A stretch of DNA of 64,000 nt, from positions 1-64,000 of the forward strand of contig WYBE01000064.1 in the NCBI GenBank assembly GCA_011526045.1, in the 5' to 3' direction. The position numbers and the translations under genes were made by a program. The notes below the pieces were generated by a model, which did no database searches, was not told where the DNA came from, and saw only the letters and a list, made by a program, of their open reading frames with translations. Source of the stretch: Nevskiales bacterium. GTDB lineage: Bacteria; Pseudomonadota; Gammaproteobacteria; Steroidobacterales; GCA-2729495. Positions 1-13,607 of this stretch are shown one piece after another. Position 1 is the first letter of the stretch; every line of letters begins with the position of its first letter.

Positions 1-5
1 ACCCT

Positions 6-37
6 GTTGTCTGATTCGCGGGTTCGAATCCGACAAC
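6..37. repeat. Hairpin repeat with embedded T-loop core, copy 1
   Basis: A 13-nt arm (GTTGTCTGATTCG) is followed by a 6-nt loop and the arm CGAATCCGACAAC, so the stem is paired except for one position. The centre contains GGGTTCGAATCC, the universal tRNA T-loop core. The flanks do not form a proper five-pair T-stem and no CCA end follows, so it is not a tRNA. An identical copy lies at 186-217. Confidence 0.75.
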
Positions 38-50
38 GTGAACCGTAGAA

Positions 51-83
51 ATGAAAAGAACCCCTTCGCGGGGCTCTTTTCAT
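51..83 (-). terminator. Terminator hairpin, copy 1
   Basis: The arms ATGAAAAGA and TCTTTTCAT enclose CCCC/GGGG around a short loop. Read as minus-strand RNA, the one odd position becomes a G-U wobble, giving a continuous stem that ends in a U-rich tract. Read as plus-strand RNA, it is an A-C mismatch. This favours function as the terminator of minus-strand tRNA transcripts. It follows the 3' end of a tRNA-Ser fragment (89-107). Confidence 0.75.
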
Positions 84-88
84 TTCAC

Positions 89-107
89 TGGCGGAGAGGG
101 TGGGATT
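89..107 (-). pseudogene. tRNA-Ser 3' fragment (acceptor end with CCA)
   Basis: On the minus strand this reads as the 3' part of the T-loop and T-stem, the 3' acceptor strand CCTCTCC, the discriminator G and an encoded CCA. It is identical to the same part of the intact tRNA-Ser at 269-359. It has no 5' partner next to it, because a 70-bp insertion (108-177) occupies the T-loop junction. The matching 5' part exists at 462-533, on the far side of the intact gene. It cannot be a tRNA alone. Confidence 0.85.
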
Positions 108-177
108 GACTCGGGGCCGGATACGGCCCCTCGCCCTCCGGGCGCCTGCGGCGTCCAAGACTGCTCTGCAGTTTTGT
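108..177. repeat. Structured T-loop insertion, copy A (70 bp)
   Basis: The element begins GACTCGGGGC and ends TTTTGT. It contains four consecutive short hairpins: GGGGCCG/CGGCCCC with a 4-nt loop, GCCC-TCC-GGGC, CGCC-TGC-GGCG, and an 8-bp stem around the loop TCT near 158-175. It sits exactly where the tRNA-Ser T-loop is broken: left flank TGGGATT, right flank CAAACCC instead of CGAACCC. Copy B at 390-461 has the same plan with several paired substitutions. No protein is encoded. Confidence 0.85.
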
Positions 178-185
178 CAAACCCT

Positions 186-217
186 GTTGTCTGATTCGCG
201 GGTTCGAATCCGACAAC
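186..217. repeat. Hairpin repeat with embedded T-loop core, copy 2
   Basis: Identical to 6-37: 13-nt arms with a single mismatch and a 6-nt loop. It lies between insertion copy A and the terminator of the intact tRNA-Ser. Its role is unknown. It could be a remnant of an older tRNA fragment or a REP-like palindrome. Confidence 0.75.
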
Positions 218-230
218 GTGAACCGTAGAA

Positions 231-263
231 ATGAAAAGAACCCCTTCGCGGGGCTCTTTTCAT
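231..263 (-). terminator. Rho-independent terminator of tRNA-Ser
   Basis: Same sequence as 51-83. It starts 5 nt downstream of the CCA end of the intact minus-strand tRNA-Ser. The minus-strand RNA forms an uninterrupted GC-cored stem (one G-U pair) with a U-rich 3' arm, the normal layout of a tRNA terminator. Confidence 0.8.
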
Positions 264-268
264 TTCAC

Positions 269-359
269 TGGCGGAGAGGGTGGGATTCGAACCCACGTTA
301 CGGGGTTACCGTAAACACGCTTTCCAAGCGTGCGCCTTCAGCCACTCGGCCACCTCTCC
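269..359 (-). tRNA. tRNA-Ser (anticodon GGA)
   Basis: Complete type II tRNA of 91 nt with encoded CCA. The acceptor stem GGAGAGG/CCTCTCC, the anticodon loop CTTGGAA with GGA at the centre, a long variable arm (TTTACGG...CCCCGTAA) and the T-arm GTGGG-TTCGAAT-CCCAC are all intact. It reads UCC/UCU serine codons. It lies downstream of dapA and the small lipoprotein gene on the same strand and is followed by a terminator. It is the only complete copy among three tRNA-Ser segments here, and it lies between the two insertion elements. Confidence 0.95.
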
Positions 360-379
360 GAATTCGCTCTCGTCCCACC

Positions 380-533
380 GGGTGGGATTGACTCGGGGCT
401 GGGTACAACCCCTCGCCCCTGCGGGGCGGCTTCGCCGTCCAAAATCGCTCTGCGATTTTGTCGAACCCACGTTACGGGGTTACCGTAAACACGCTTTCCA
501 AGCGTGCGCCTTCAGCCACTCGGCCACCTCTCC
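380..533 (-). pseudogene. tRNA-Ser interrupted in the T-loop by a structured insertion
   Basis: Positions 462-533 are identical over 72 nt to the 5' part of the intact tRNA-Ser (acceptor 5' strand, D-arm, anticodon GGA, variable arm, T-stem, start of the T-loop). The T-loop then breaks into insertion copy B (390-461) and resumes for only 10 nt (380-389). No 3' acceptor strand follows, so the RNA cannot close its acceptor stem. The stub also forms an inverted repeat with its flank (TCCCACC-G-GGTGGGA, 373-387). A processed or trans-acting role is conceivable but nothing here shows it. Confidence 0.8.
390..461. repeat. Structured T-loop insertion, copy B (72 bp)
   Basis: Same four-hairpin plan as copy A: GGGGCTG/CAACCCC with one mismatch, GCCCC-TGC-GGGGC, CGGC-TTC-GCCG, and a perfect AAAATCGC-TCT-GCGATTTT stem. 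The 2-bp length difference from copy A is one extra base pair in hairpin 2. It interrupts a tRNA-Ser T-loop between TGGGATT and CGAACCC. Positions 534-603, to its right beyond the broken tRNA, show no further recognisable feature. Confidence 0.85.
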
Positions 534-603
534 GTTTGTTCCGATCAGGTCGCACCCACCGGGAGTTGACCGGTCGCAAGGGTAACCAACCACCTGCCCG
601 GCA

Positions 604-912
604 TCAATTTTTGCGCTCCGAATTCGTGAGCGGTTTGTCGAAAAAGTCGGGCGGGCGCGGCAGGCAGGCAGCGTTCTGCGAGAGCGGCTCCGCCGGCTCC
701 TGGCCAGGCGGGATGTCCAATCGGCCGCTCTCGTCGGGCCGATCGAGACCGGGCGGGACCGAGAGCAGCGGGGCCGACGTGGCCTCCTGGTATTCCTCTA
801 CGGAGACACAGCTGTCCTCGCCACCACCCCAGAAGGAGCAACCACCCGCGATCGCGGTGAACGCGCAGACCAAGCCAGCGCAGCAAGCGCGTCGAGTGTC
901 ACGGTTACGCAT
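604..912 (-). CDS. Small lipoprotein next to dapA, BamC N-terminus-like
   Basis: A 102-residue protein with an arginine-rich start, a hydrophobic segment and a lipobox-like AIAGGC around residues 20-25, so it is probably an outer-membrane lipoprotein. After the cysteine a short unstructured part contains YQEA, a PLLSVPPGLD stretch and DIPPG. This resembles the N-terminal region of the BAM lipoprotein BamC, whose gene follows dapA in many gammaproteobacteria. The two globular BamC domains are absent. Its start is one base after the dapA stop, so the genes are probably co-transcribed and translationally coupled. The BamC link is inferred from position and a short motif only. Confidence 0.7.
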   Translation of the reverse strand: MRNRDTRRACCAGLVCAFTAIAGGCSFWGGGEDSCVSVEEYQEATSAPLLSVPPGLDRPDESGRLDIPPGQEPAEPLSQNAACLPRPPDFFDKPLTNSERKN

Positions 913-913
913 A

Positions 914-1789
914 CTAAAGGAGACGGGCCCGGCGCAACGCGGCTTCGACCTTCGGCTGCGCGTCGGCGGACAGCGGCGTGAGCGGCAGGCGGATGCCGCC
1001 GGGGATAAGCCCCATCCGCTCCAGCGCCCACTTCACGGGAATCGGATTCGATTCGACGAAAAGATCGCGGTGCAGATCGGCGAGCAGGCCGTCGATTTCG
1101 GCAGCATGCGCGGCCTCGCCAGCCAGTGCGGCGCGGCACATCCCGGACATTGCCTTCGGCGCGACGTTGGCGGTCACGGAGACGACGCCGTGCCCGCCGA
1201 GGCGCATGAACTCGCGCGCGGTGGCATCGTCGCCGCTGTACAGGCGGAAATCCCTGCCACAGAGATCGCGGATTGCCGGCACGCGATCGAGTTCGCCGGT
1301 GGCTTCCTTGATGCCGAAGATGCGCGGGTGCTGCGCGAGCCGTGCGACGGTGGCCGGCTTGAGATCGGCGACCGTGCGCCCGGGAACGTTGTAGAGCATG
1401 ACGGGCTTTGCGACGGCGTCGGCCACCGCCGAGAAATGGCGGTACATGCCTTCCTGGGTCGGCTTGTTGTAATAAGGAACCACCACCAGGTAACCGGCGA
1501 TCGGCAGGCGGCCCACCGCCTTCGACAGATCGATGGTCTGCGCGGTGGAATTCGAGCCCGTCCCGGCGACCACCGGGACTCGTCCCTTCGCCCGCTCAGC
1601 CGCCACCCGCACAACCTCGACGTGCTCGTCGCGCGTCAACGTGGCCGACTCGCCGGTGGTGCCGGCGATCACCAGCCCGTCGCTGCCCTGCTCGACATGC
1701 CAGTCCACCAGCTTCTCCAGGCAGGCAAAGTCGACTGCTCCGTCCGGGCGCATGGGCGTGACGAGCGCTACGAGGCTGCCGCTGAACAT
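914..1789 (-). CDS. dapA: 4-hydroxy-tetrahydrodipicolinate synthase
   Basis: DapA condenses pyruvate with aspartate semialdehyde, the first committed step of lysine and diaminopimelate synthesis. At 291 residues it has the usual length. The GTTGES motif lies around residues 43-48, Tyr133 in YNVPGRT is the proton relay, and Lys161 in GIKEATG forms the Schiff base with pyruvate. I chose the start at MFSGSLVALVTP, which aligns with the family. The frame is open for about 300 bases further upstream, but that extension has no family similarity. It is divergent from gcvR and overlaps nothing; the small lipoprotein follows at once. Confidence 0.96.
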   Translation of the reverse strand: MFSGSLVALVTPMRPDGAVDFACLEKLVDWHVEQGSDGLVIAGTTGESATLTRDEHVEVVRVAAERAKGRVPVVAGTGSNSTAQTIDLSKAVGRLPIAGYLVVVPYYNKPTQEGMYRHFSAVADAVAKPVMLYNVPGRTVADLKPATVARLAQHPRIFGIKEATGELDRVPAIRDLCGRDFRLYSGDDATAREFMRLGGHGVVSVTANVAPKAMSGMCRAALAGEAAHAAEIDGLLADLHRDLFVESNPIPVKWALERMGLIPGGIRLPLTPLSADAQPKVEAALRRARLL

Positions 1790-1860
1790 CTGGATCCGCC
1801 GGGGAAGGCTTGAACGGGTGTGGGATGGTACTTTTGGCACCGCGGGCCCGCAAGGGCGGC

Positions 1861-1888
1861 TTGATGGGGCAGGTTTTCCCGGTACACT
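1861..1888 (+). promoter_or_regulatory. Putative sigma-70 promoter of gcvR
   Basis: TTGATG (1861-1866), a 16-bp spacer and TACACT (1883-1888) each match consensus at four of six positions. It lies 36 bp before the gcvR start in the 135-bp dapA/gcvR divergent region. It is supported by position and sequence only. Confidence 0.45.
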
Positions 1889-1924
1889 GCCGACCTTTCG
1901 CCGCCACCCCCGCCGGTCATACCC

Positions 1925-2452
1925 ATGGAAAAACTGCTGGCCATCACCGCGATCGGTCCCGACCGCGCCGGTCTCGTTCGCGACCTGAGCCAGGCCGTTT
2001 CTGGCGGCGGGGGTAACATTCGCGAAAGTCGCATGGTCGCGCTCGGCTCCGATTTTGCCGTCCTGATGCTGGTCGCCGGCAACTGGCATAGCGTCAACAA
2101 GATGCGCGAACGACTCACGCAGTTGCAGCGCGACTCCGGGCTTACCGTCACGGTCCGCGACACGGAGCCGCGCTCACCTGAACCTGCGGCGCCGTACAAC
2201 ATCGACGTCGTCGCGCTGGACCAGGAGGGCATCGTGCTGCGCCTGTCGAGCTTTTTCGCCAACCGCAGCCTCGAAATCGCCGAGATGAGCACCCGGCGTT
2301 ACAATGCTCCACACACCGGCGCACCGATGTTCGCGGTGCAGATGACCGTCAATCTCCCGGCCAGCACTCACGTGGCCACGTTGCGGGAGGAGTTTCTCGA
2401 TTTCTGCGACGAGCACAATCTCGACGCCATCATGGAACCCGCCCAGCGCTGA
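1925..2452 (+). CDS. gcvR: Glycine cleavage system transcriptional repressor-like protein (two ACT domains)
   Basis: GcvR of E. coli binds glycine and modulates GcvA control of the glycine cleavage operon. This 175-residue protein opens with the ACT signature (LLAITAIGPDRAGLVRDLS) and carries a second ACT-like half from about residue 90 (IDVVALDQEGIVLRLSSFF). There is no DNA-binding domain, which fits a regulator acting through protein contact. It is divergent from dapA and followed by bcp, the same order as in E. coli. No gcv genes or gcvA lie in the window, so the target is taken from the family. Confidence 0.88.
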   Translation: MEKLLAITAIGPDRAGLVRDLSQAVSGGGGNIRESRMVALGSDFAVLMLVAGNWHSVNKMRERLTQLQRDSGLTVTVRDTEPRSPEPAAPYNIDVVALDQEGIVLRLSSFFANRSLEIAEMSTRRYNAPHTGAPMFAVQMTVNLPASTHVATLREEFLDFCDEHNLDAIMEPAQR

Positions 2453-2489
2453 GTGATCCAACCCGGCAGGCCACCAGGCAGAGATTTCC

Positions 2490-2957
2490 ATGAGCAAGAT
2501 CCAGGTTGGCAAGGTCGTGCCGGGCTTCAAGGTACCGGCCACCGGTGGTGCCGCAACGAGCCTCGACTCGCTGCGCGGCAAGACCGTGGTGCTCTATTTC
2601 TACCCGAAGGACGACACCCCGGGCTGCACCACCGAGGGCTGCGGCTTCCGCGATCAGCACGCCGGATTTCGCAAGCTCGGCGCAGTGGTTCTCGGCGTCT
2701 CGCGGGATTCTCTCGCCTCACACGAGAAGTTCAAGGCCAAATACGAGTTTCCGTTCGAACTGCTCTCAGATGGCGACGAAAAACTGTGCAAGCTTTTCGA
2801 TGTCATCAAAGAGAAGAACATGTACGGCAAGAAGGTCATGGGTGTCGAGCGCAGCACCTTCCTAATCGACGGGACAGGCGTCCTGCGCCGTGAATGGCGC
2901 AAGGTAAAGGTGGACGGGCATGTCGAGGAAGTGCTCGCGGCCGTAAAGGCCCTGTGA
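2490..2957 (+). CDS. bcp: Thioredoxin-dependent thiol peroxidase (Bcp/PrxQ)
   Basis: An atypical two-cysteine peroxiredoxin that reduces hydrogen peroxide and organic peroxides using thioredoxin. At 155 residues it is full length. The peroxidatic Cys46 lies in DTPGCTTEGC and the resolving Cys51 is five residues later, the PrxQ arrangement. The helix continuing from it (EGCGFRDQ) and the C-terminal GVERSTFLID segment are typical. It is cytoplasmic with no signal peptide. It follows gcvR by 37 bp and precedes the M48 protease by 21 bp, so the genes from gcvR to mlaA may form one transcript. Confidence 0.95.
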   Translation: MSKIQVGKVVPGFKVPATGGAATSLDSLRGKTVVLYFYPKDDTPGCTTEGCGFRDQHAGFRKLGAVVLGVSRDSLASHEKFKAKYEFPFELLSDGDEKLCKLFDVIKEKNMYGKKVMGVERSTFLIDGTGVLRREWRKVKVDGHVEEVLAAVKAL

Positions 2958-2978
2958 CGCACCGCGGTTAGCAGGTTG

Positions 2979-4466
2979 ATGCTGTTCCGGCGCGCCATTG
3001 CCACGCTGTGCACGCTCGGCATCGTGCTCTCCCCCGGGGCCGTACCGGCGCAGGAGCAGTTGCCCGACATCGGCAGCCCGTCCGACACAGTCCTGTCACG
3101 GGAGAAGGAGCAGCAGATCGGCCGCGCCATTTACCGGAGCCTGCGTGACACCGGCCACGTCATCACGGACCCGGAGACCCAGGAATACATCCAGGACATC
3201 GGCCAGAAGCTGGCCGCGCATGCGACCGACAACGGACAGAAATTCCGGTTCTTCGTCGTCAATGACCCGGCCATCAACGCATTCGCCCTGCCTGGCGGGT
3301 TCATCGGCGTGCATTCCGGGTTGCTGCTCGCGACCGCCAATGAGAGCGAACTCGCCGGTGTGCTGGCACACGAAATTGCCCATGTCACCCAGCGGCACAT
3401 CTCGCGCGCCATCTATGCAAACCAGCGCGCCAGCATCCTGACCATGGCGGCCATGCTCGGCGCGATTCTGCTCGGCGCGGCCACCGGTTCCAGCGACGCC
3501 ATTCAGGGAGCGGTGGTCGCTGCCCAGAGCGCGTCTGCCCAGCAGCAGATCAACTTCACGCGTTCCAACGAGTATGAAGCGGACCGTGTCGGCGTGGGAC
3601 TACTCGCCGCCGCCGGTTTCGATCCAATGGGCATGCCGAGTTTCTTCGAGACGATGGCCCGCCAGACAGGCCCAATGGCGAGCCAGGCGCCCGAGTTCCT
3701 GCGCACCCACCCGGTCACCGTCAACCGCATCGCCGAAACCCGCGAGCGCGCGCTCCACCTGCCCCGACCGGACGTCGCAGACGCCACCGGATACCGCCTG
3801 ACCCGCGCCCGCCTGCGCGCGCTCAGCTCGCGCACCCCGGAGGCGGCACTCGAGCATTTCCGGGCCGATGCACAGAATCCGGATCGCGTCGGTGACATCG
3901 GCACGGCCTATGGCTTCGCGCTCGTGTATCTGCAGGGCGGCAATTACGTCGCAGCAGAGCAGGAGTTCTCCACGCTCATGGCAGCCCACCCCAGCGTGAT
4001 TCCATTCCACACCGGCCTCGCACAGGCGCAGATGGGTCTCGGCCGGCGAGAGGCCGCGTTCCGTACCTACGAGCGCGCCATGCAACTCTTTCCACGCAAC
4101 GTGCCGCTCACGGTGCGTTATGCCGAGGCGCTGCTGCAGGACGGCCGCCCCAAGGAGGCCCATCGGGTGTTGCTCGACCTGCTGAACATCGTTCCGCCCA
4201 CACCGGAACAAGTGCGCCTGATCGCGCGTGCAGCGAGCGCCGCTCATGACACCGGCGACGCGCATTACTACATGGCCGAGTACCACATCATGACCGGCGA
4301 CCTGCTGCTCGCAGCGGACGAACTGCGCGTCGCCCTGAGCATCCCCGAACTCGACGCGGTTCAACGGGCGCGGTTCAGTTCGCGCCTGGCCGAAATCCAG
4401 GAAACGATCGACCGCCTGCGGGCCGAGAAGCAGCCGTTACCGTCAAGCCAGGGTGGCAGTTCGTAA
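2979..4466 (+). CDS. bepA: BepA-like periplasmic M48 zinc metalloprotease with TPR tail
   Basis: BepA-type proteases act as chaperone and protease in outer-membrane protein assembly, in contact with the BAM and LptD complexes. The signal peptide ends about residue 25 (AVPAQEQ). The zinc motif HEIAH is at residues 131-135, and the third ligand lies in the E-x-x-A-D motif near residue 198. From about residue 290 to the end there are helical TPR-like repeats. At 495 residues it matches BepA (about 487). I chose ATG 2979; a TTG directly before it is also in frame. Its stop overlaps the mlaA start (TAATG), implying coupled translation of two envelope proteins. Confidence 0.9.
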   Translation: MLFRRAIATLCTLGIVLSPGAVPAQEQLPDIGSPSDTVLSREKEQQIGRAIYRSLRDTGHVITDPETQEYIQDIGQKLAAHATDNGQKFRFFVVNDPAINAFALPGGFIGVHSGLLLATANESELAGVLAHEIAHVTQRHISRAIYANQRASILTMAAMLGAILLGAATGSSDAIQGAVVAAQSASAQQQINFTRSNEYEADRVGVGLLAAAGFDPMGMPSFFETMARQTGPMASQAPEFLRTHPVTVNRIAETRERALHLPRPDVADATGYRLTRARLRALSSRTPEAALEHFRADAQNPDRVGDIGTAYGFALVYLQGGNYVAAEQEFSTLMAAHPSVIPFHTGLAQAQMGLGRREAAFRTYERAMQLFPRNVPLTVRYAEALLQDGRPKEAHRVLLDLLNIVPPTPEQVRLIARAASAAHDTGDAHYYMAEYHIMTGDLLLAADELRVALSIPELDAVQRARFSSRLAEIQETIDRLRAEKQPLPSSQGGSS

Positions 4467-5209
4467 TGTCGAAGCAGCCTGCATTCCCGGTCATGGGCCT
4501 GTTGTGCGTACTGCTGCTCGCCGGCTGTGCCTCCAGGCAGGCGGCCGACCGCGAGCCGAACCCCGACCCGTTCGAGCCCATGAATCGGGCCATGTTCCGG
4601 TTCAACGACGTGGCCGACCGGTATGTCGCCGAACCGGTCGCTCGCGGCTATGAGAAAGCCACGCCACGCGCCTTGCGGATCGGCGCCACCAATTTCTTCG
4701 AGAACCTGAAGTACCCGATCACCATCGTTAACCAGTTTCTGCAGGGCAAGGTGCGCGAAGGTGGTGCGGACCTGGGGCGGTTCCTGGTCAACTGTACGAT
4801 CGGGCTCGCCGGCATCTTCGATCCGGCCACCGAAATGGGCCTGAAGGCGCATGACGAGGATTTTGGCCAGACGCTGGCCGTATGGGGCGTATCCGAAGGG
4901 CCTTTCTTCATGGTGCCGTTGTTCGGCCCCTATACCTTGACGCATGGGCTGGGAACCCTGGCCGACAACCAGGTCTCGCTGCTGTCGCAATACCCCGACA
5001 GCAGCGTCAGGTTCAGGCTGTGGGTCTGGGACCGGGTGCAGCGCCGCTACCGGTTGCTGGGCACCGAGGAGGAGATCCGCCGCGCCTACGACCCCTATCT
5101 CTTCGTGCGCGACGCCTATTTCCAGAATCGCAGATACCTGATCCTCGACGGCAACATCCCGGACGAGGAACTGTTCCCCGAGGACGAGTTCGAGGATTTC
5201 GAGGAATAG
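4466..5209 (+). CDS. mlaA: MlaA outer-membrane phospholipid-asymmetry lipoprotein
   Basis: MlaA (VacJ) removes mislocalised phospholipids from the outer leaflet of the outer membrane and passes them to MlaC. The signal peptide ends in the lipobox LLAGC. The family signature DPFEPMNRAMFRFND follows, and YDPYLFVRDAYFQNRR lies near the end. At 247 residues it has the normal length. The C-terminus is strongly acidic (EDEFEDFEE). It sits on the plus strand, convergent with mlaFEDCB, so the whole pathway is in one place in two transcription units. The 95 bp between mlaA and mlaB show no clear terminator. Confidence 0.95.
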   Translation: MSKQPAFPVMGLLCVLLLAGCASRQAADREPNPDPFEPMNRAMFRFNDVADRYVAEPVARGYEKATPRALRIGATNFFENLKYPITIVNQFLQGKVREGGADLGRFLVNCTIGLAGIFDPATEMGLKAHDEDFGQTLAVWGVSEGPFFMVPLFGPYTLTHGLGTLADNQVSLLSQYPDSSVRFRLWVWDRVQRRYRLLGTEEEIRRAYDPYLFVRDAYFQNRRYLILDGNIPDEELFPEDEFEDFEE

Positions 5210-5304
5210 GCTACCGAGCGACGGTCAGCTGCGGCACGAAACCCTGCAGGAGCAGCCGCGGGCGTGGCGCGCATCGACACCTGCCGCGAGCGATGTACGC
5301 CCCG

Positions 5305-5604
5305 TTATTTCGCCGCATCGAGGAATCCGTCCACCTCACTGATGCGCGCGAGCGCCATCAGGCTCGTCGGGACGGTCGTGAAGCTGAGGCTTTTTCCTTT
5401 GCTGCGTGCCCAGCGCAGCCACTCGACCACCAGGGCAAGCCCTGCGCTGTCCACCTGCGCCACGCCACCGAGATCGATGACTGCCTGCGAGCTGTCGGCG
5501 AGCGCCACCTGGCTCTGGCGCCAGACGGCCGGCACCGTCTCGAAACCGAGATCCCCGCTGACCCGGTAACGGCCCTCACCCACCGATTCGAAGGAGGCCG
5601 TCAC
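5305..5604 (-). CDS. mlaB: MlaB, STAS-domain subunit of the phospholipid ABC transporter
   Basis: MlaB binds the ATPase MlaF and is needed for its assembly and activity. The 99-residue protein is a single STAS domain with the core DLGGVAQVDSAGLALVVEWLRWA, where D-S-A-G is the usual loop at the start of the recognition helix. It is cytoplasmic. Its start overlaps the mlaC stop by 4 bp and it is the last gene of the operon, as in other mla clusters. Confidence 0.9.
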   Translation of the reverse strand: MTASFESVGEGRYRVSGDLGFETVPAVWRQSQVALADSSQAVIDLGGVAQVDSAGLALVVEWLRWARSKGKSLSFTTVPTSLMALARISEVDGFLDAAK

Positions 5605-6257
5605 TTGCCCTCCTTCTTGCCTGGCGTCGGCTCGATCTGCTCGGGCTCGCGACGGCCGGAATCGATGTCTTCGGTCTCTTTCTCGAGGCGCTCGATCAAG
5701 GCATCGAGGCCCTTGGCCGCCACTTCAGCGTTGAACTGGTTGCGGTAGTTCTGCACGTAGGAAATACCTTCAATGCGGACGTCGTAGGCTTTCCACCCCT
5801 CCGGCGTGCTGCGCATCGAATAGTTGACCGGCACCAGGGTGCCGTCCGGCATCTTCATCTCCGTCCGCACCAGTGTGCGCCCGTCCTGCGGCGGCGCCCT
5901 CTGCGGCAGGATGCGAATATCGTCCTGTTCGAACTTCAGGATGGCCGTGGCGTAGCTGCGCAACAGGAAGTTGTAGAACACGTCGACGAAACGCTGGCGT
6001 TGCGCCGGTGTAGCGTCCCGCCACGCCTTGCCGAGCACCAGCCGGCCGGCATAATCGACGTCGAACTTCGGCAGTAGTTCGCGGTTGATGAGGGCGTAGA
6101 GCTCCTGCTTGTTCGCCGCCAGCTCCTCACGGCGACCATTGAGCTGGGCGGAGATCCGGTCGACCGCCTGTTCGACGACCTGCTGCGCCGTTTCCTCGGC
6201 TCCTGCCGCGGTGAAAACGGCCGCAAGAACGAGGCTACTGAGAAGTTTTCGTATCAT
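5601..6257 (-). CDS. mlaC: MlaC periplasmic phospholipid carrier
   Basis: MlaC shuttles phospholipid between MlaA in the outer membrane and the MlaFEDB complex. It has a signal peptide (MIRKLLSSLVLAAVFTAAGA) and the conserved Tol_Tol_Ttg2 fold, with segments DVFYNFLLRSYATAI and GWKAYDVRIEGISYVQNYRNQF that match the family. At 218 residues it is near the usual length. The C-terminal tail is charged and proline-containing (PEQIEPTPGKKEGK). It overlaps mlaD by 23 bp at its start and mlaB by 4 bp at its end. Confidence 0.93.
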   Translation of the reverse strand: MIRKLLSSLVLAAVFTAAGAEETAQQVVEQAVDRISAQLNGRREELAANKQELYALINRELLPKFDVDYAGRLVLGKAWRDATPAQRQRFVDVFYNFLLRSYATAILKFEQDDIRILPQRAPPQDGRTLVRTEMKMPDGTLVPVNYSMRSTPEGWKAYDVRIEGISYVQNYRNQFNAEVAAKGLDALIERLEKETEDIDSGRREPEQIEPTPGKKEGK

Positions 6258-6720
6258 CGCTCTCGACTCCCAGCTTGAACAGCATCTTGCCGACGATGTT
6301 CTCCAGTACGATCGCCGACTGCGTCAGTTCGATTTCACTGTTGTTGTGCAGATACGTCTCGGAACCACCAGGCCCGATGCCCACGTATTTGCTCCCGAGC
6401 AGCCCCGCGGTGAGGATGCTGGCGTCCGAGTCGTCGGGGATCCGGTCGAACCCGGCCGCGATACGCATGGTCACCAGGGCTTCGAGCCTCTCCGGATCGA
6501 ACGCTATGCGCTCCACGCGGCCGATGGTCACCCCGGCCATCGAGACCGGCGCGCGGACCTTGAGGCCGGCAATGTCCTGGAACCTCGCCGTGATGATGTA
6601 ACCGCTGTCGTCAACATAGCTCTCGATGTTGGTGGTCTGCGTCGCGAGAAAAAACAGCGCCGCAAAGCCCAGCAGGATGAAAAATCCCGCCCCGATTTCC
6701 CTAGCCGGTGTGCTTGCCAT
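6235..6720 (-). CDS. mlaD: MlaD, MCE-domain subunit of the phospholipid transporter
   Basis: MlaD forms the hexameric MCE ring on the periplasmic side of the inner membrane. An N-terminal transmembrane helix (about residues 12-30, GAGFFILLGFAALFFLA) is followed by one MCE domain (ARFQDIAGLKVRAPVSMAGV, then GLLGSKYVGIGPGG). At 161 residues it is somewhat shorter than E. coli MlaD at the C-terminus. It lies between mlaE (12-bp gap) and mlaC (overlap). Confidence 0.94.
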   Translation of the reverse strand: MASTPAREIGAGFFILLGFAALFFLATQTTNIESYVDDSGYIITARFQDIAGLKVRAPVSMAGVTIGRVERIAFDPERLEALVTMRIAAGFDRIPDDSDASILTAGLLGSKYVGIGPGGSETYLHNNSEIELTQSAIVLENIVGKMLFKLGVESDDTKTSQ

Positions 6721-6732
6721 TGGTCGAAGCCC

Positions 6733-7500
6733 TTACAGAAGGAATGCCGTGATCATGTAATCGAGAATCAACACGAGCACCGAGGTGATCACCACGGTGC
6801 GGGTGGTCGCAAGCCCGACGCCCTCGGCGGTCGGCGCGGCGGTATACCCCTCGAACACCGCCACGAGGCTCGCGGCCACCCCGAACACGACGCTCTTGAG
6901 TACGCCCTCGCCCACGTCCCCGGTCTCGACGTATTCCTGCATCTGCGACCAGAACGCGCCGTTGTCCACGCCCATGAGCTGCACGCCTACGAACCAGGCG
7001 CCAAGAATGCCGACGCTGTTGAACACGGCCGTCAACAGCGGCACGGAGATCACCCCGCCGAGGAAGCGCGGGACCGCAATACGGCCCATCGGGTCGATCG
7101 CCATCACCTCCATCGCGGAGATCTGGTCGGTGGCGCGCATCAGGCCAATCTCGGCAGTCAGGGCCGTACCCGCCCGCCCGGCAAAAAGCAGCGCGGTAAC
7201 CACCGGCCCGAGTTCCTTGAGCAGCGTCAGCGCCGCACCGGCACCGAGCAGGTCCTCCTGCCGCAGCCGGGAGAATGCATCGTAGCCCTGCAGGCCAATC
7301 ACCATGCCGACGAAGAACCCGGAGGTCATGATGATGACCAGCGACAGCACGCCCGCGTTGTGGACCTGGCGCGAGATCAGGATCGGTCGGCGCGCCGTGT
7401 ACGGCAGGGCCCGCAACATGGCGAGGAAGAACAGCGCCACTGCGCCGAGCTTGCGCACGCCCTGCGCGATCCGACGCAGCATTTCCTGCGCCTTACCCAC
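6733..7500 (-). CDS. mlaE: MlaE, permease subunit of the phospholipid ABC transporter
   Basis: Inner-membrane permease of the Mla complex. It is 255 residues with several hydrophobic helices and the MlaE signatures GLQGYDAFSRLRQEDLLGAG, ELGPVVTALLFAGRAGTAL and EIGLMRATDQISAMEVM. An amphipathic N-terminal interfacial region precedes the first helix. The gene overlaps the end of mlaF by 8 bp, so stoichiometric translation with the ATPase is likely. Confidence 0.95.
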   Translation of the reverse strand: MGKAQEMLRRIAQGVRKLGAVALFFLAMLRALPYTARRPILISRQVHNAGVLSLVIIMTSGFFVGMVIGLQGYDAFSRLRQEDLLGAGAALTLLKELGPVVTALLFAGRAGTALTAEIGLMRATDQISAMEVMAIDPMGRIAVPRFLGGVISVPLLTAVFNSVGILGAWFVGVQLMGVDNGAFWSQMQEYVETGDVGEGVLKSVVFGVAASLVAVFEGYTAAPTAEGVGLATTRTVVITSVLVLILDYMITAFLL

Positions 7501-8317
7501 GGCCGTCTCCGCCCAGGAGCTCCGCGCGGTAGTCCGCAGCCGGATAATGGAACGGCACCGGACCGTCGGAGGCTCCGCTCAGGAACTGCTGAACGAGCTC
7601 CGAATCGGATTGCGCCAGCTCTTCCGGGCTGCCCGCGCCGATGACCTTCCCACCGGACACGACATAGCAGCAATCCGCGATCTGGTTGATCTGCTCCACG
7701 TCGTGCGACACGACCACGCTGGTCACGCCCAGCACGTCGTTGTTCATCTTGATCAGCCGCAGCACCATGCCCATGGAAATCGGATCGAGCCCGGCGAACG
7801 GCTCGTCGTAGAGCAGCAGATCGGGGTCGAGCACCATTGCGCGCGCCAGTCCGACCCTACGGCCCATACCACCCGACAACTGCGCCGGCATCAGATGGGC
7901 CGCGCCACGCAAGCCCACCGCGTGCAGCTTGGTCAGCACCAGGTTGCGGATCAGGGGCTCGGGCAGAGCCGTGTGCTCGCGCACGGGGAACGCCACGTTG
8001 TCGAACACCGAGTAGTCGGTCAGGAGCGCGGAGTTCTGGAACAACATCCCCATCCGCCTGCGCAAGGCGTACAGCTGGGAACGCCGCAGCCCGGGAACGT
8101 TCTGCCCGTCCACCAGCACGCGGCCTCCAGCCGGACGCAGCTGGCCGGTGATCATGCGCAACAGTGTGGTCTTGCCGGTACCGCTCGGCCCCATGATGGC
8201 AGTGATCTGGCCGCGCGGGACGCGCAGGCTCAAGCCATCGAAAATCACACGACCTGCGGTGGAAAACCGCAGGTCGTCGACCTCGATCATCGGCCTGACG
8301 GCCTCGGACTCCGTCAC
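7493..8317 (-). CDS. mlaF: MlaF, ATPase subunit of the phospholipid ABC transporter
   Basis: Energises phospholipid movement through MlaE. Walker A is GPSGTGKTT, the signature is LSGGMGRRVGLARA, Walker B is LLLYDEPFAGLDP, and the switch histidine is in VVVSHD. The C-terminal tail ending SDGPVPFHYPAADYRAELL is the MlaF-specific extension that docks on MlaB. I chose GTG 8317, which gives an N-terminus of E. coli length (274 residues); ATG 8290 is the alternative. It is the first gene of mlaFEDCB. The promoter would lie between it and the aldolase gene, only 40 bp upstream. Confidence 0.94.
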   Translation of the reverse strand: MTESEAVRPMIEVDDLRFSTAGRVIFDGLSLRVPRGQITAIMGPSGTGKTTLLRMITGQLRPAGGRVLVDGQNVPGLRRSQLYALRRRMGMLFQNSALLTDYSVFDNVAFPVREHTALPEPLIRNLVLTKLHAVGLRGAAHLMPAQLSGGMGRRVGLARAMVLDPDLLLYDEPFAGLDPISMGMVLRLIKMNNDVLGVTSVVVSHDVEQINQIADCCYVVSGGKVIGAGSPEELAQSDSELVQQFLSGASDGPVPFHYPAADYRAELLGGDGRG

Positions 8318-8357
8318 GAGCGCACGAGTTTGGGTTGCAGCAGACAGCGCGACGGGA

Positions 8358-9374
8358 TCAGGCCGCTTCCATCGCGGCCCGGTACTGCCCTGCCCGGGCC
8401 AGTCCATTCAACTCGGCCCGGCGCGCGAACGCAGTCTGGCCGGCCTTGAACTGCCCATCCTTGCCGCCCCATGCCTTCAAGGCTTCGTCCTGCAACGCGC
8501 GACCGTAGGAGAATGAGAGCTGCCAGGGGTGAGACCCCATCTCGTTCATCGCGCTCAGGTGGGCCGTCGCCTCGGCAGAACTCTGCCCACCGGAAAGAAA
8601 CGCGATGCCGGGCACCGTAGCGGGCACGTGCCCACGCAGGCAGCGCACGGTTGCCTCCGCCACTTCGCGCACGCCGGCACGCTTCGGGCACTTCTTGCCG
8701 GAGATCACCATGTTGGGCTTGAGGATCATGCCCGTGAGCTCCACGCGGTGCGCGCGCAGCGCACGGAACGTTGCATCGAGCGCGAGCGCGGTAACCTCTT
8801 CGCAGCGTTCGAGCGTGTGACCCCCGTCCATCAGCACCTCAGGCTCGACGATGGGGACTATGCCCGACTCCTGGCAGAGCGCCGCGTAGCGGGCAAGCGC
8901 ATGCGCATTCGCCTCAATGCCGAAGGGCGTCGGAATCGCGTCGGAGATGTCGATGACCGCACGCCACTTGGCAAACTTCGCGCCGAGGCTGACATATTCC
9001 TTCAGGCGATCGCGCAGGCCGTCGAGCCCTTCCGTAACCGTCTCGCCCGGAAATCCAGCCAGCGGCTTGGCCCCGGCATCGACCTTGATGCCCGGCAACA
9101 CGCCCTGATCGGCCAGCAGCCTGGCAAACGGCACGCCCGCGCGGCTGGACTGGCGCAGGGTCTCGTCGAAGAGGATCACGCCACCGATATGCCTGGACAG
9201 ACCCGGAGCAGTGAACAGCATTTCCCGGTAGAGGCGGCGGTTGTCTTCCGTGGAATCGACGTTGATCGCCGTGAAGCGTTTCTTGATAGTCGGAAAACTC
9301 TCGTCAGCCGCCAGAATTCCCTTGCCGGGAGCGACCATGGCGCGAGCGATCGCGGCCAAATCCTGAGCCGTCAT
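8358..9374 (-). CDS. Class I fructose-bisphosphate aldolase
   Basis: Cleaves fructose 1,6-bisphosphate to dihydroxyacetone phosphate and glyceraldehyde 3-phosphate in glycolysis, and runs in reverse in gluconeogenesis. It is the eukaryote-like class I form. GKGILAADES is near residue 18, the IGGVILFDETLRQ segment follows, AKWRAVIDI is near residue 135, and Lys219 in GMILKPNMV is the Schiff-base lysine. At 338 residues it is full length. The start at MTAQDLAAIARAM has a good ribosome site (AGGGAGAAG) and matches the family. It is divergent from the SUF regulator. No other glycolytic gene is near. Confidence 0.94.
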   Translation of the reverse strand: MTAQDLAAIARAMVAPGKGILAADESFPTIKKRFTAINVDSTEDNRRLYREMLFTAPGLSRHIGGVILFDETLRQSSRAGVPFARLLADQGVLPGIKVDAGAKPLAGFPGETVTEGLDGLRDRLKEYVSLGAKFAKWRAVIDISDAIPTPFGIEANAHALARYAALCQESGIVPIVEPEVLMDGGHTLERCEEVTALALDATFRALRAHRVELTGMILKPNMVISGKKCPKRAGVREVAEATVRCLRGHVPATVPGIAFLSGGQSSAEATAHLSAMNEMGSHPWQLSFSYGRALQDEALKAWGGKDGQFKAGQTAFARRAELNGLARAGQYRAAMEAA

Positions 9375-9487
9375 TGCACTTCTCCCTGAATTGTCGAATG
9401 CCGCCCGGGCAGGTCCGAGCGCGCCGCGGGCGAGGCTCGGCAGGATACCAGATTCACCCTCGTAGCTGGCGCAGCACAGCCCGGTGC

Positions 9488-9521
9488 TTGCCCGTCCACG
9501 CAATCAGGACTAACATGGTCC
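9488..9521 (+). promoter_or_regulatory. Putative suf promoter with overlapping operator
   Basis: TTGCCC (9488-9493), exactly 17 bp, then TAACAT (9511-9516), each with four of six consensus matches. The interrupted inverted repeat GGAC-N7-GTCC (9507-9521) brackets the -10 element. It lies just upstream of an Rrf2-family regulator gene, a natural place for an autoregulatory IscR-like site. The half sites (GACT...GGTC) only partly resemble E. coli IscR type 1 sites. Confidence 0.45.
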
Positions 9522-9544
9522 CATATGCCTGACGAGCGGTGGAA

Positions 9545-10015
9545 ATGCTGCGTATCAGCCGACTGACCGATTACGGCACGATGATCCTCGTGCACCTCGC
9601 CGGCCGCGCCGGGCACGTCTGCTCGGCAAGCGACGTCGCAGCCGGCACACACGTCGCCCTGCCGACGGTGCAGAAGATCCTCAAGTTTCTTGCCCGCGCC
9701 GGGCTGGTCGTATCGGTGCGCGGTGCCGACGGCGGTTACACACTTGGTCGCGCACCGGAAGCCATCAGCGCGGCCGACATACTCGACGCACTCGAGGGCC
9801 CGGTGGCCATCACGGAGTGCAGCCAGTCGGACAGCCAGTGCGAACTCGAATCGCTCTGCCCGGTCGGCAGCGCCTGGCAGCGGATCAACAAATCCATCCG
9901 CGTCGCGCTCGACGAGATCACGCTCGCCGATCTCCGCGGACCGGCCCGTGACATTCCGGTTGCCGCCCTGACGCGCGGCATCACGCGCCCGCTGGTGCGC
10001 CTCGATCGCGGCTGA
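9545..10015 (+). CDS. SUF operon regulator, Rrf2/IscR family
   Basis: A winged-helix Fe-S sensor expected to control the downstream suf genes. The N-terminal Rrf2 helix-turn-helix (ISRLTDYGTMILVHLA, then VALPTVQKILKFLARAGLV and the wing VRGADGGYTLGR) is clear. Three cysteines (C-x6-C-x5-C in ECSQSDSQCELESLC, around residue 97) are the expected [2Fe-2S] ligands. It matches the group annotated as the gammaproteobacterial/Xanthomonas-type SUF regulator. I chose ATG 9545; a GTG two codons upstream is possible. It is 15 bp from sufB, so autoregulation is likely. Confidence 0.9.
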   Translation: MLRISRLTDYGTMILVHLAGRAGHVCSASDVAAGTHVALPTVQKILKFLARAGLVVSVRGADGGYTLGRAPEAISAADILDALEGPVAITECSQSDSQCELESLCPVGSAWQRINKSIRVALDEITLADLRGPARDIPVAALTRGITRPLVRLDRG

Positions 10016-10030
10016 TACGGCTGACAACAC

Positions 10031-11479
<1,449 letters not shown>

Positions 11480-11503
11480 CGCTTCGGGGAGACGGTACTC
11501 ATC

Positions 11504-12271
11504 ATGTTGCTGGAAATTGACAATCTCTACGCCAACGCAGGCAGAACTCCGATCCTGAAAGGCCTCTCGCTGGCGATCAAGGCTGGCGAAGTGCATGCCA
11601 TCATGGGGCCAAACGGCTCGGGCAAGAGCACGCTCGCCCATGTGCTGGCCGGACGCGACGGCTACGAGGTGACCGCAGGCCGCGTCCAGTACCAGGGCCG
11701 AGACCTGCTCGGAATGAGCCCGGAGGAACGCGCGCGTGAGGGCCTCTTCCTCGGGTTCCAGTACCCGGTCGAAATTCCCGGTGTCAACAATCTCTACCTG
11801 CTGCGCGCGGCACTGAATGCCCGCCGCAAGCATCGTGGCGAAGCGGAGATCGATGCCATCGGATTCATGCGGCTGGCGAAGGAGAAGGCTCGCTTGATGC
11901 AGATGGGCGAGCAGTTCATGAATCGCGGCGTTAATGAAGGCTTCTCCGGCGGCGAGAAGAAGCGCAACGAGATTTTCCAGATGGCGGTCCTGCAACCGGC
12001 GCTCGCGGTGCTGGACGAGACCGATTCCGGGCTGGACATCGACGCCCTGAAGGTCGTGGCGAACGGTGTCAATAGCCTACGCGACGGCCAGCGCGGCTTC
12101 CTGCTGGTCACCCATTACCAGCGGCTGCTCGACCACATCGAGCCGGACTTCGTACACGTCCTGGCAGGCGGTCGCATCGTGCGCACCGGCGACAAATCGC
12201 TCGCCGCCGAACTCGAGTCGCACGGCTACGACTCCCTGCTGGGAACCACACCCCGTCAGGCGGCCCGCTAG
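11504..12271 (+). CDS. sufC: SufC, ATPase of the Fe-S assembly complex
   Basis: ABC-type ATPase that drives conformational change in SufBC2D. Walker A is GPNGSGKST near residue 36. The SufC-specific FQYPVEIPGVNNLYLLRAAL segment follows, then FSGGEKKRNEIFQMA as signature and LAVLDETDSGLDIDAL as Walker B. At 255 residues it is full length. It lies 4 bp upstream of sufD, with tight coupling. Confidence 0.97.
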   Translation: MLLEIDNLYANAGRTPILKGLSLAIKAGEVHAIMGPNGSGKSTLAHVLAGRDGYEVTAGRVQYQGRDLLGMSPEERAREGLFLGFQYPVEIPGVNNLYLLRAALNARRKHRGEAEIDAIGFMRLAKEKARLMQMGEQFMNRGVNEGFSGGEKKRNEIFQMAVLQPALAVLDETDSGLDIDALKVVANGVNSLRDGQRGFLLVTHYQRLLDHIEPDFVHVLAGGRIVRTGDKSLAAELESHGYDSLLGTTPRQAAR

Positions 12272-12275
12272 CATC

Positions 12276-13607
12276 ATGAGCGAGGCCGCGACTGTTCCCG
12301 CCACCGTGCAGGCCGCCAGCGCCGCAGCGGCGCTGAGCGAGCCCGCGCTGGCCTGGTTCGCCACCGTGCGTGAACGAGCACTGCAGGCTTTTGTGGCACA
12401 CGGATTTCCCACCACCAGCTCGGAGGACTGGCGCTACACCGACCTGCGCGATACCGCCCGACGCATTGCTGATTACCTGTCCCGGCCCGTACCGCCGGCG
12501 ACGGCGAACTCGTACTCCGCCCTGCTCGAGCGACTGGGCGTTCTCGATGATCTGCACGGTCCAGCGCTGATCCTCAGCGACGGCACGCTCGCCGTGGATC
12601 CGGCCACTGCGCCGGTGATGGCTGGACTTACCCTGAGCGCGCTGAGCGCGGCCCAGCCGGCCGCCCGCACCGCCCTGGCCGAGAGGATCACCGCTGCCAC
12701 GGAAGGCGACGGCGCACTGGCTGCGTTGAACACCGCGTTGCTGCGGCAGGGGCTGGTGGTCGATGTGGCGGCAGGCGCCGAACTCGAGGCCCCGGTCTAT
12801 ATCGTGTGCACCACCACCACGGAGGGCGCACCGCAGAACCGCATCCTGATCCATCTGCGGCGTGGCAGCCGTGCGACGATCGTGGAGCATCATCTCGGCC
12901 TGACGGCCGCGGTGTCGAATACGAAGACCGACGTGCTGTGCGAACCCGATTCGACACTCGTTTACGTCAAGCTTCAGGAAGACTCGCCGGCGGCCACCCA
13001 CCTCGCCTCGCAGCGCGTGCGCCTCGAAGGCGGCGCACGCGCCCGGCTCCTGCACCTCGACCTCGGCGCGCAGCTGGCCCGAAACGACCTGCATGTCAGT
13101 CTCGATGGGACCGGCGCCGAGGTCAGCGCGAACGGCCTGTTTTTCGCCGACGCTGCGCGCCACCTCGACAACCACACCCGGATCGAGCACCACGCAGCGC
13201 ACACGGTGAGCCAGGAACTGTATCGCGGCGTGGTGAGCGAGCGGGGCCGTGGCGTGTTCAACGGCAAGGTGATCGTTCACGCGGGAGCGAACGGCACGGA
13301 TGCGAAGCTCACCAACCAGAACCTGCTCCTGTCAGATACCGCCGAGGTGGACACCAAGCCCGAGCTCGAGATCTATGCGGACGAGGTTCGCTGCAGCCAT
13401 GGCGCTACCACGGGCCAGCTCGATGCGGGCGCGATCTTCTACCTTCGCTCGCGCGGCATCGAAGAGGCGCAGGCACGGCGCATGCTGATCGCCTCGTTCG
13501 TTCGGGAGATTCTGCGCAATCTGCCGGACGCAGCACTGGAGGCCCACGTCGCCCGGCGGCTCGCCGCACGGCTGCCAGAACTGGACGAGGCAGCTGAAAC
13601 ACCATGA
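12276..13607 (+). CDS. sufD: SufD, Fe-S cluster assembly scaffold subunit
   Basis: Paralogue of SufB that completes the SufBC2D scaffold and is needed for iron acquisition. It is 443 residues. The N-terminal helical part has GFPTTSSEDWRYTDLRD, and the beta-helix core ends with DEVRCSHGATTGQLDAGAIFYLRSRGI, including the conserved Cys-x-His. I chose ATG 12276, 4 bp after sufC. The sufS start overlaps its stop by 4 bp (ATGA). Confidence 0.96.
   Translation: MSEAATVPATVQAASAAAALSEPALAWFATVRERALQAFVAHGFPTTSSEDWRYTDLRDTARRIADYLSRPVPPATANSYSALLERLGVLDDLHGPALILSDGTLAVDPATAPVMAGLTLSALSAAQPAARTALAERITAATEGDGALAALNTALLRQGLVVDVAAGAELEAPVYIVCTTTTEGAPQNRILIHLRRGSRATIVEHHLGLTAAVSNTKTDVLCEPDSTLVYVKLQEDSPAATHLASQRVRLEGGARARLLHLDLGAQLARNDLHVSLDGTGAEVSANGLFFADAARHLDNHTRIEHHAAHTVSQELYRGVVSERGRGVFNGKVIVHAGANGTDAKLTNQNLLLSDTAEVDTKPELEIYADEVRCSHGATTGQLDAGAIFYLRSRGIEEAQARRMLIASFVREILRNLPDAALEAHVARRLAARLPELDEAAETP

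Follow-up and report, generated by a model that had tools for sequence, protein, structure and literature searches.

The RtT RNA of Escherichia coli is released from a tRNA transcript, and a duplicated tRNA end is the usual attachment segment at tRNA genes. In an excerpt of one paper (PMC3733652), Rickettsia palindromic elements are described as short palindromic sequences lying in frame in protein genes, with a CGTC tag in some. In an excerpt of another (PMC2658671), rtT RNA is listed as differing by a tandem repeat of 175 bp.

Here we compare these systems with an array at the start of the window, i.e., the whole analyzed stretch of 64,000 nucleotides from contig WYBE01000064.1 of a Nevskiales bacterium. 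At the tyrT locus of E. coli, the parts follow one another in the same order as in the window, with a spacing of 178 bp. The Rfam RtT model matches all 4 units of strain K-12, and gives no match on the window (gathering cut-off) or on 10 related loci (E <= 1). The array in the window is RtT-like and lies outside RtT by Rfam's cut-off.

Organization of the tRNA-Ser(GGA) array

All features of the array are read on the minus strand. The structured insert that they share, referred to as element I, was scored with R1, a covariance model of I, and R2, a broader model; E-values of these home-made models are rough. A truncated tRNA-Ser(GGA) copy (L, 461-533) contains the first 73 nt of the gene, ends in the T-loop at TTCGA and is identical to 287-359; as direct repeat D2, this 5' part equals the intact gene over 74/74 nt. 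Its T-loop holds insertion B, a 72-nt copy of the four-hairpin element I (389-460; C...GAGTCA; R2 71.7 bits), followed by the 3' strand of the T-stem (R') and a short spacer (360-388) that has CCCGGTGGG in common with the flank before 533. In the homologous arrangement at L132 and L199, the copy of the promoter flank is clearer, and by reading it is the promoter-side flank that the spacer repeats.

The intact tRNA-Ser(GGA) occupies 269-359, and its last 19 nt (287-269) constitute R. It is followed by a terminator-like palindrome T (228-266), a hairpin H containing an inverted T-arm (GGATTCGAACCC; 185-221) and a T-arm remnant, GGGTTTGA (177-184), which forms the left border of insertion A; these three were assigned from the sequence, and H in addition as a host-specific inverted copy across loci. 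Insertion A is a 70-nt copy of element I (107-176; R2 65.7 bits). Next come a second tRNA 3' end (R, 19 nt with CCA; 89-107), with base 107 common to R and the end of insertion A, a second copy of T (48-86; repeats I4 and D1), and a second copy of H with spacer (1-47), which is cut by the contig end and continues on contig C40 of the same assembly (L010). The tRNA 3' end copies at 107-89 and 287-269 are identical with a spacing of 180, and positions 1-107 are exactly identical to 181-287. The repeat unit of the window is 180 bp long, comprising the terminator, the inverted T-arm, insertion A and the last 19 nt of the tRNA. A weak Rfam sX4 match (43.4 bits, cut-off 70) was seen at L060 over the tRNA-Ser and terminator (37-188).

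The layout given in the preliminary description (a tRNA-Ser 5' part, insertion B, an intact tRNA-Ser, terminators, insertion A and a 3' end) was found in place, including the exact match of both halves to the intact gene, the 180-bp period, and the breaking of the T-loop by structured inserts; its boundaries differ from ours by a single base, whose assignment the sequence leaves ambiguous. Its proposal that a single tRNA was split by a tRNA-carrying cassette is not supported, as the two “halves” come from different repeat units. Right after the 5' part comes the 3' strand of its own T-stem (388-380), the end at 107-89 sits in a downstream unit bordered by the T-arm remnant, and the upstream and downstream types each occur alone at other loci. 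Unequal crossing-over, which had been offered as the other possibility, is a plausible source of the array.

Further units had been predicted to the left of the window. This was borne out in part: the end of C40 contains flank, terminator, a third 19-nt copy and most of another insertion, and is 99% identical to window positions 42-159. C40 holds the far end of the array, which leaves about 21 nt, plus any units that collapsed in assembly, unread on that side. With a gap of about 21 nt between the contig ends, the smallest solution is three 3'-end copies, and the number is at least three, collapsed units being possible. In G046, a genome listed as the same species and assembled as a single contig, a unit of this kind likewise follows the tRNA-Ser(GGA), so the array is more than the assembly artefact that had been considered beforehand. 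The array in G046 differs from that in the window: a single unit is separated by about 12.5 kb from a decayed one, and none of its five R1 hits is a truncated tRNA copy upstream. The G046-G000 difference at L100 is an indel of about 275 bp rather than a clean insertion.

We also searched G046 for integrases, and none of its 5 hits lies between the two array fragments; the absence of an integrase from the array, as first reported, thus holds in the genome checked. Ten reading frames of the surrounding stretch (L247, G046:C1:2119400-2134000) belong to ordinary metabolic or regulatory families or to none. The 12.5-kb segment itself (about 662-13200) holds aldo/keto reductases, an alcohol dehydrogenase, a short-chain dehydrogenase and a LysR regulator. 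The test for a remnant of a tRNA-integrated island, an integrase with attachment repeats, was negative in G046, the genome examined.

Recurrence of the unit at tRNA genes

Sought elsewhere, as the preliminary description had proposed, the insertion recurs at other tRNAs of the same genome and in many relatives, with T-loops broken alike. Within this genome, element I occurs at 3/46 tRNA genes, including tRNA-Ser(GCU) and tRNA-Arg(CCG), and each copy is followed by the last 19 nt of its own tRNA. The other 43/46 tRNA genes have no copy of their own end (<=3 mismatches) within 700 nt or up to the end of the stretch or contig. The T-loop TTCGAAT is present in 15/46 tRNA genes of the genome. In the family, R1 has matches at 44 places in 20/40 genomes, and 34 of the 42 places examined have a same-strand tRNA (Ser, Arg, Pro, Gln or Glu) within 260 nt, one of the 34 being L087, which overlaps the tRNA and may be spurious.

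A pattern scan of named genomes returned at least 117 loci, among them loci in Escherichia, Citrobacter, Salmonella, Enterobacter, Serratia, Pectobacterium, Dickeya, Erwinia, Photorhabdus, Aeromonas, Woeseiaceae, Lysobacterales, Chromatiales, and Legionellales; the pattern overlaps the models, and some of the listed 117 loci are probably due to chance (e.g., L190 and L191). As the pattern contained AATCC, tRNA copies were favored. Overall, units related to RtT adjoin Ser, Arg, Tyr, Gln, Glu, and Pro tRNAs in Gammaproteobacteria. We read 149 matches in the 117 listed loci, and 81 of these matches follow a same-strand tRNA at a distance of 100 nt or less. The next 19 nt equal the host tRNA end (<=3 mismatches) in 48/81, and the remaining 33 first units differ at more than 3 of 19 positions. 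At 164 loci, a unit follows the tRNA at a distance of 25-130 nt; the host T-loop, read directly, is TTCGAAT in 159 of them, and in 4 more if the predicted tRNA end is shifted by 1-2 nt. The upstream type, a truncated tRNA with element I in its T-loop before an intact tRNA, was found at more than 10 other loci.

The RtT model itself has matches in 50/274 genomes of the class (E <= 0.001), 18 of them over the Rfam cut-off. RF00391 and R2 coincide at 12 or more places in 9 genomes other than this one, according to a comparison of the lists by reading, and two of these places, both in G175, are above the cut-off. Like RtT, the unit in the window lies downstream of a tRNA with the last 19 nt of that tRNA, and its four hairpins share the GAC/GTC closure. 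The RF00391/R2 overlaps connect it by homology with members that pass the cut-off, the direct match to E. coli tyrT being weak: its units score at best 8.8 bits with R1, in the wrong register, and 19.7 bits with R2 (E 0.012, 3/4 units).

It had been suggested that copy number be compared among strains, and the number of units at tyrT indeed varies among E. coli strains, between 0 and 4. In a spread sample of 60 out of 5391 rows, the units annotated as RtT under the best match number 4 in 8 rows, 3 in 13, 2 in 12, 1 in 19, and 0 in 8. RtT is also annotated at tRNA-Ser of E. coli in 14/30 spread rows, the annotation term being RtT sRNA.

Element I and its copies outside tRNA genes

Element I is about 70-78 nt long and consists of four hairpins within a GAC/GTC closure. 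In an alignment of 9 sequences, 11/26 pairs change on both sides, and there are 21 double-change cells compared with 6.2 +- 2.0 in shuffled alignments; the observed covariation score was reached by 0/500 shuffles. With 120 sequences, in an alignment fitted to the model, the double-change cells number 579 vs. 142 +- 13. The commonest ends of R1 matches are GAGTC or GAATC (25/42), and CGTC occurs in 3/42.

Similarity was compared among the 30 of 42 copies that are clear. Within one genome, copies at different tRNAs have a mean similarity of 0.80 (17 pairs), whereas copies at the same tRNA in other species of the genus have 0.715 (20 pairs), and this higher likeness within one genome across tRNAs fits movement or gene conversion. 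In the species pair G000/G046, by contrast, same-tRNA copies (0.90, 4 pairs) are slightly more alike than different-tRNA copies (0.87, 8 pairs), which fits vertical descent at that depth.

R2 has matches in 137/369 genomes of the class and in 69/299 genomes of a phylum-wide draw. Among the best-scoring new R2 loci, a same-strand tRNA lies within 300 nt in 21/29 (class) and 4/12 (phylum), T-arm flanks are found without a tRNA in 3/29 and 1/12, and neither is found in 5/29 and 7/12. The preliminary description had named the occurrence of the hairpin element far from any tRNA as a finding that would speak against its account, and such copies exist; element I is therefore not tied to tRNAs, which represent one habitat. 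The copies off tRNAs mostly keep the ends GAC...GARTC and have different flanks. In G175, element I resides within a 324-bp MITE-like repeat with terminal inverted repeats of 22-24 nt. Four copies of this repeat of about 324 bp were read (L289-L292), with the terminal inverted repeats TAGCCCGGATATTGCACCAAGG. Rfam models detect nothing at element I in the dispersed copies, and a single dispersed copy used as query had no match in plasmids or phages.

Two protein genes also contain element I, in frame and at three sites in all, and both have homologs without it. In G178, two copies of a gene contain it in frame, whereas two paralogs and the homologs in G061 and G072 do not, some of these insert-free homologs (G178 at 2976 kb, G072) having stop codons elsewhere; the insert is 72 nt long, and the empty site is GTGGA^GTCC, with ^ marking the insertion point. 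A helicase gene of G189 has two in-frame inserts, a first of 75 nt in antisense and a second, in sense, of 72 nt by reading, the stretch around the second being 78 nt longer in net. R2 scores these inserts at 37.9 and 49.2 bits, and those of one G720 copy at 37.7 and 47.4 bits. Both are absent, with contiguous DNA, from G717, G719, G728, and the second G720 copy (tblastn). R2 finds nothing in the insert-free helicase genes of G719 and G717, and the G728 stretch has one R2 copy beyond the aligned part. The empty sites are GTGA^GAAG for the first insert (sense of I) and GCGA^GTCT for the second (in G719).

Two of the three protein-gene sites therefore read GA^GTCY, resembling the T-loop site GA^ATCC, and the third, GA^GAAG, departs from GA^RTC; the insertion point is ambiguous by one base, and the protein-gene sites come from two genes only. 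All three inserts start with C right after GA, with A following where the empty site has G, and insertion B of the window likewise extends for 72 nt after GA and is followed by ATCC. As a further observation, the helicase open frame has 1120 codons (L316/L348 in G189, L349 in G720) vs. 955-959 in homologs, with more R2 copies nearby, and its length suggests that it may hold further in-frame inserts. In G700, a sulfate permease reading frame seems to start with a peptide encoded by the element (L326).

Origin of the units and comparison with known elements

The locus is best explained as an RtT-like, tRNA-linked array whose core, element I, probably behaves as a small mobile palindromic element with T-loops as a favored habitat. 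Element I would insert directly after GA, and T-loops with TTCGA^ATCC would offer this site in many tRNA genes; the T-loop copies may thus have arisen by the same insertion process as the copies in protein genes, with a putative enzyme acting in trans to move the element. An insertion in a T-loop would break that tRNA copy and would persist only where an intact copy is kept or duplicated. Since only alleles beside an intact tRNA would persist, two layouts would be expected: a truncated tRNA with element I before the intact gene, and units of 3' end, T, H, and element I after it. Direct repeats of the tRNA end would then allow units to multiply or shrink by unequal crossing-over. Several findings count against mobility of element I, namely that no linked enzyme was found in G046 (integrases) or in the 17 stretches around Y1 transposase genes, that simple insertion does not explain H, which suggests selection on RNA, the same-tRNA likeness in G000/G046, the unclean indel at L100, the weak tyrT scores, the GA^GAAG site, the one-base ambiguity of the insertion point, and the stop codons in some insert-free homologs.

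It is also possible that the units are RNA genes, an explanation about evenly balanced in our judgment between true and false. An RtT-type small RNA would be cut from tRNA precursors, with the T-arm, H and the tRNA 3' end acting as processing signals and the dispersed copies as secondary escapes or other uses of the RNA domain. Selection on the RNA can keep the four hairpins, and this explanation is compatible with mobility. The E. coli annotation as an sRNA supports it, as does the placement of units between neighboring tRNAs, in the order Tyr-unit-Gly-Thr at L225, L226, L228, and L238, and Ser-unit-Arg at L155 and L220 (likewise at L223, without a detected Ser). By reading, the hairpin ahead of the unit at L155 and L220 has no U tract; nevertheless, 73/81 distinct tRNA-to-unit intervals contain a terminator-like TTTT run. 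H is closer to the reverse complement of its own host tRNA than to other isotypes in 159/164 loci (related loci, mostly Ser), and has the loop RTGAGAA in 89/164. In the helices of element I, G-U pairs exceed A-C pairs, by 7:1 of 703 cells in hairpin 1 and by about 25:7 without junction and loop-closing pairs (the raw total with junction pairs is 26:41). This is the direction expected for, and suggests, an RNA of this strand, although G-U pairs are rare in hairpin 1 (1.0% vs. 4.1% in neighboring hairpins that were treated as terminators but include some H). In-frame protein inserts would be unexpected for an RNA gene. Within the account based on mobility, a role for RNA as well is suggested by the conserved inverted T-arm, which matches the host tRNA, by the location of units between tRNAs and by the small excess of G-U pairs; an RNA may be made from element I.

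We consider it unlikely that the units are scars of site-specific integration, with the 19-nt tRNA end as the attachment core and the units as tiny cis-mobilizable remnants of tyrosine-integrase elements. The duplicated 19-nt end resembles the usual attachment segment, G046 has 12.5 kb between its array fragments, and 5/8 of the matching viral contigs resemble prophage sequence that stops at a tRNA-Ser unit of the host. On the other hand, element I is structurally conserved and found without any tRNA end, the G046 segment has no integrase hit, and many units keep only part of the end, as in the 33/81 first units noted above; the in-frame protein inserts also speak against integration scars as a general cause. 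An alternative in which a tRNA region was simply duplicated in tandem and decayed, its hairpins being chance products of GC-rich DNA, would account for identical tandem units and for changes in copy number, and yet it is hardly credible, given the same four hairpins in many families, with covariation that is far above shuffled and slid controls and already contradicts chance hairpins, and the same element off tRNAs.

Phage carriage of element I was also considered and rejected, eight viral contigs having matched the pattern. The contigs L239, L240, L242, L244, and L246 are prophage-like, and at their end a tRNA-Ser attachment core precedes RtT-like units of the host. This picture is less clear in L241 and L245, L243 looks like chance, and no tRNA was detected on the eight viral stretches. 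Y1 transposases have matches in 9/9 genomes searched (32 matches), and element I was found near them in 0/17 stretches at E <= 0.1, with two matches at E 0.38 and 0.98 only. Membership in REP/RAYT was rejected, as the ends read have no GTAG tag and element I is absent from the 17 transposase neighborhoods.

Extending the preferred explanation based on mobility, the RtT small RNA and its tRNA-linked relatives may be copies, resident or domesticated, of a single mobile palindromic element that is ancient in Proteobacteria, inserts after GA in T-loops and in frame in proteins, and is moved by a putative enzyme; to this we would give an even chance. If true, it would tie together the tyrT repeats, T-loop-broken tRNAs, MITE-borne hairpins and in-frame protein inserts. 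The RtT RNA would gain an origin, with E. coli as a testable system that has natural copy-number variants, and Rickettsia-like in-frame palindromic insertion would extend to further Proteobacteria. Among the open-access papers listed by our searches, none dealt with RtT-like units outside enterobacteria or with element I in proteins. Within the literature searched, two points seem to be new: the RtT-type unit is spread across many tRNAs and families, and RtT is linked to an element that lies in frame in proteins.

Among known systems, REP/RAYT elements are similar in being small dispersed palindromes, with Y1 transposases in 9/9 genomes here, but differ in the GTAG tag, absent from the ends of element I that were read, and in their transposases, near which no element I was found at E <= 0.1. 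The likeness to MITEs is given by the 324-bp repeat of G175 with its terminal inverted repeats; elsewhere, at the loci read, element I lies outside that repeat. Element I resembles Rickettsia palindromic elements in being short, palindromic and in frame in proteins, and in-frame insertion with insert-free homologs was found for copies in genomes other than that of the window. Of the R1 matches, 3/42 end in CGTC. Compared by description rather than by Rickettsia sequence, element I differs in its commonest ends (GAGTC/GAATC), its four short hairpins and its T-loop habitat. The closest likeness is to RtT/rttR (RF00391), which shares with the window the succession of tRNA 3' end, spacer, inverted T-arm, GGTTCGAC, hairpins, GAGT, and tRNA 3' end. 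Unlike RtT, the array in the window is below the Rfam cut-off, is hosted in this genome by Ser and Arg tRNAs, has a terminator-like hairpin before the unit, and is accompanied by an upstream truncated tRNA bearing the element. The repeat lengths are 178 bp in K-12 and 180 bp in the window, and the number of units is variable.
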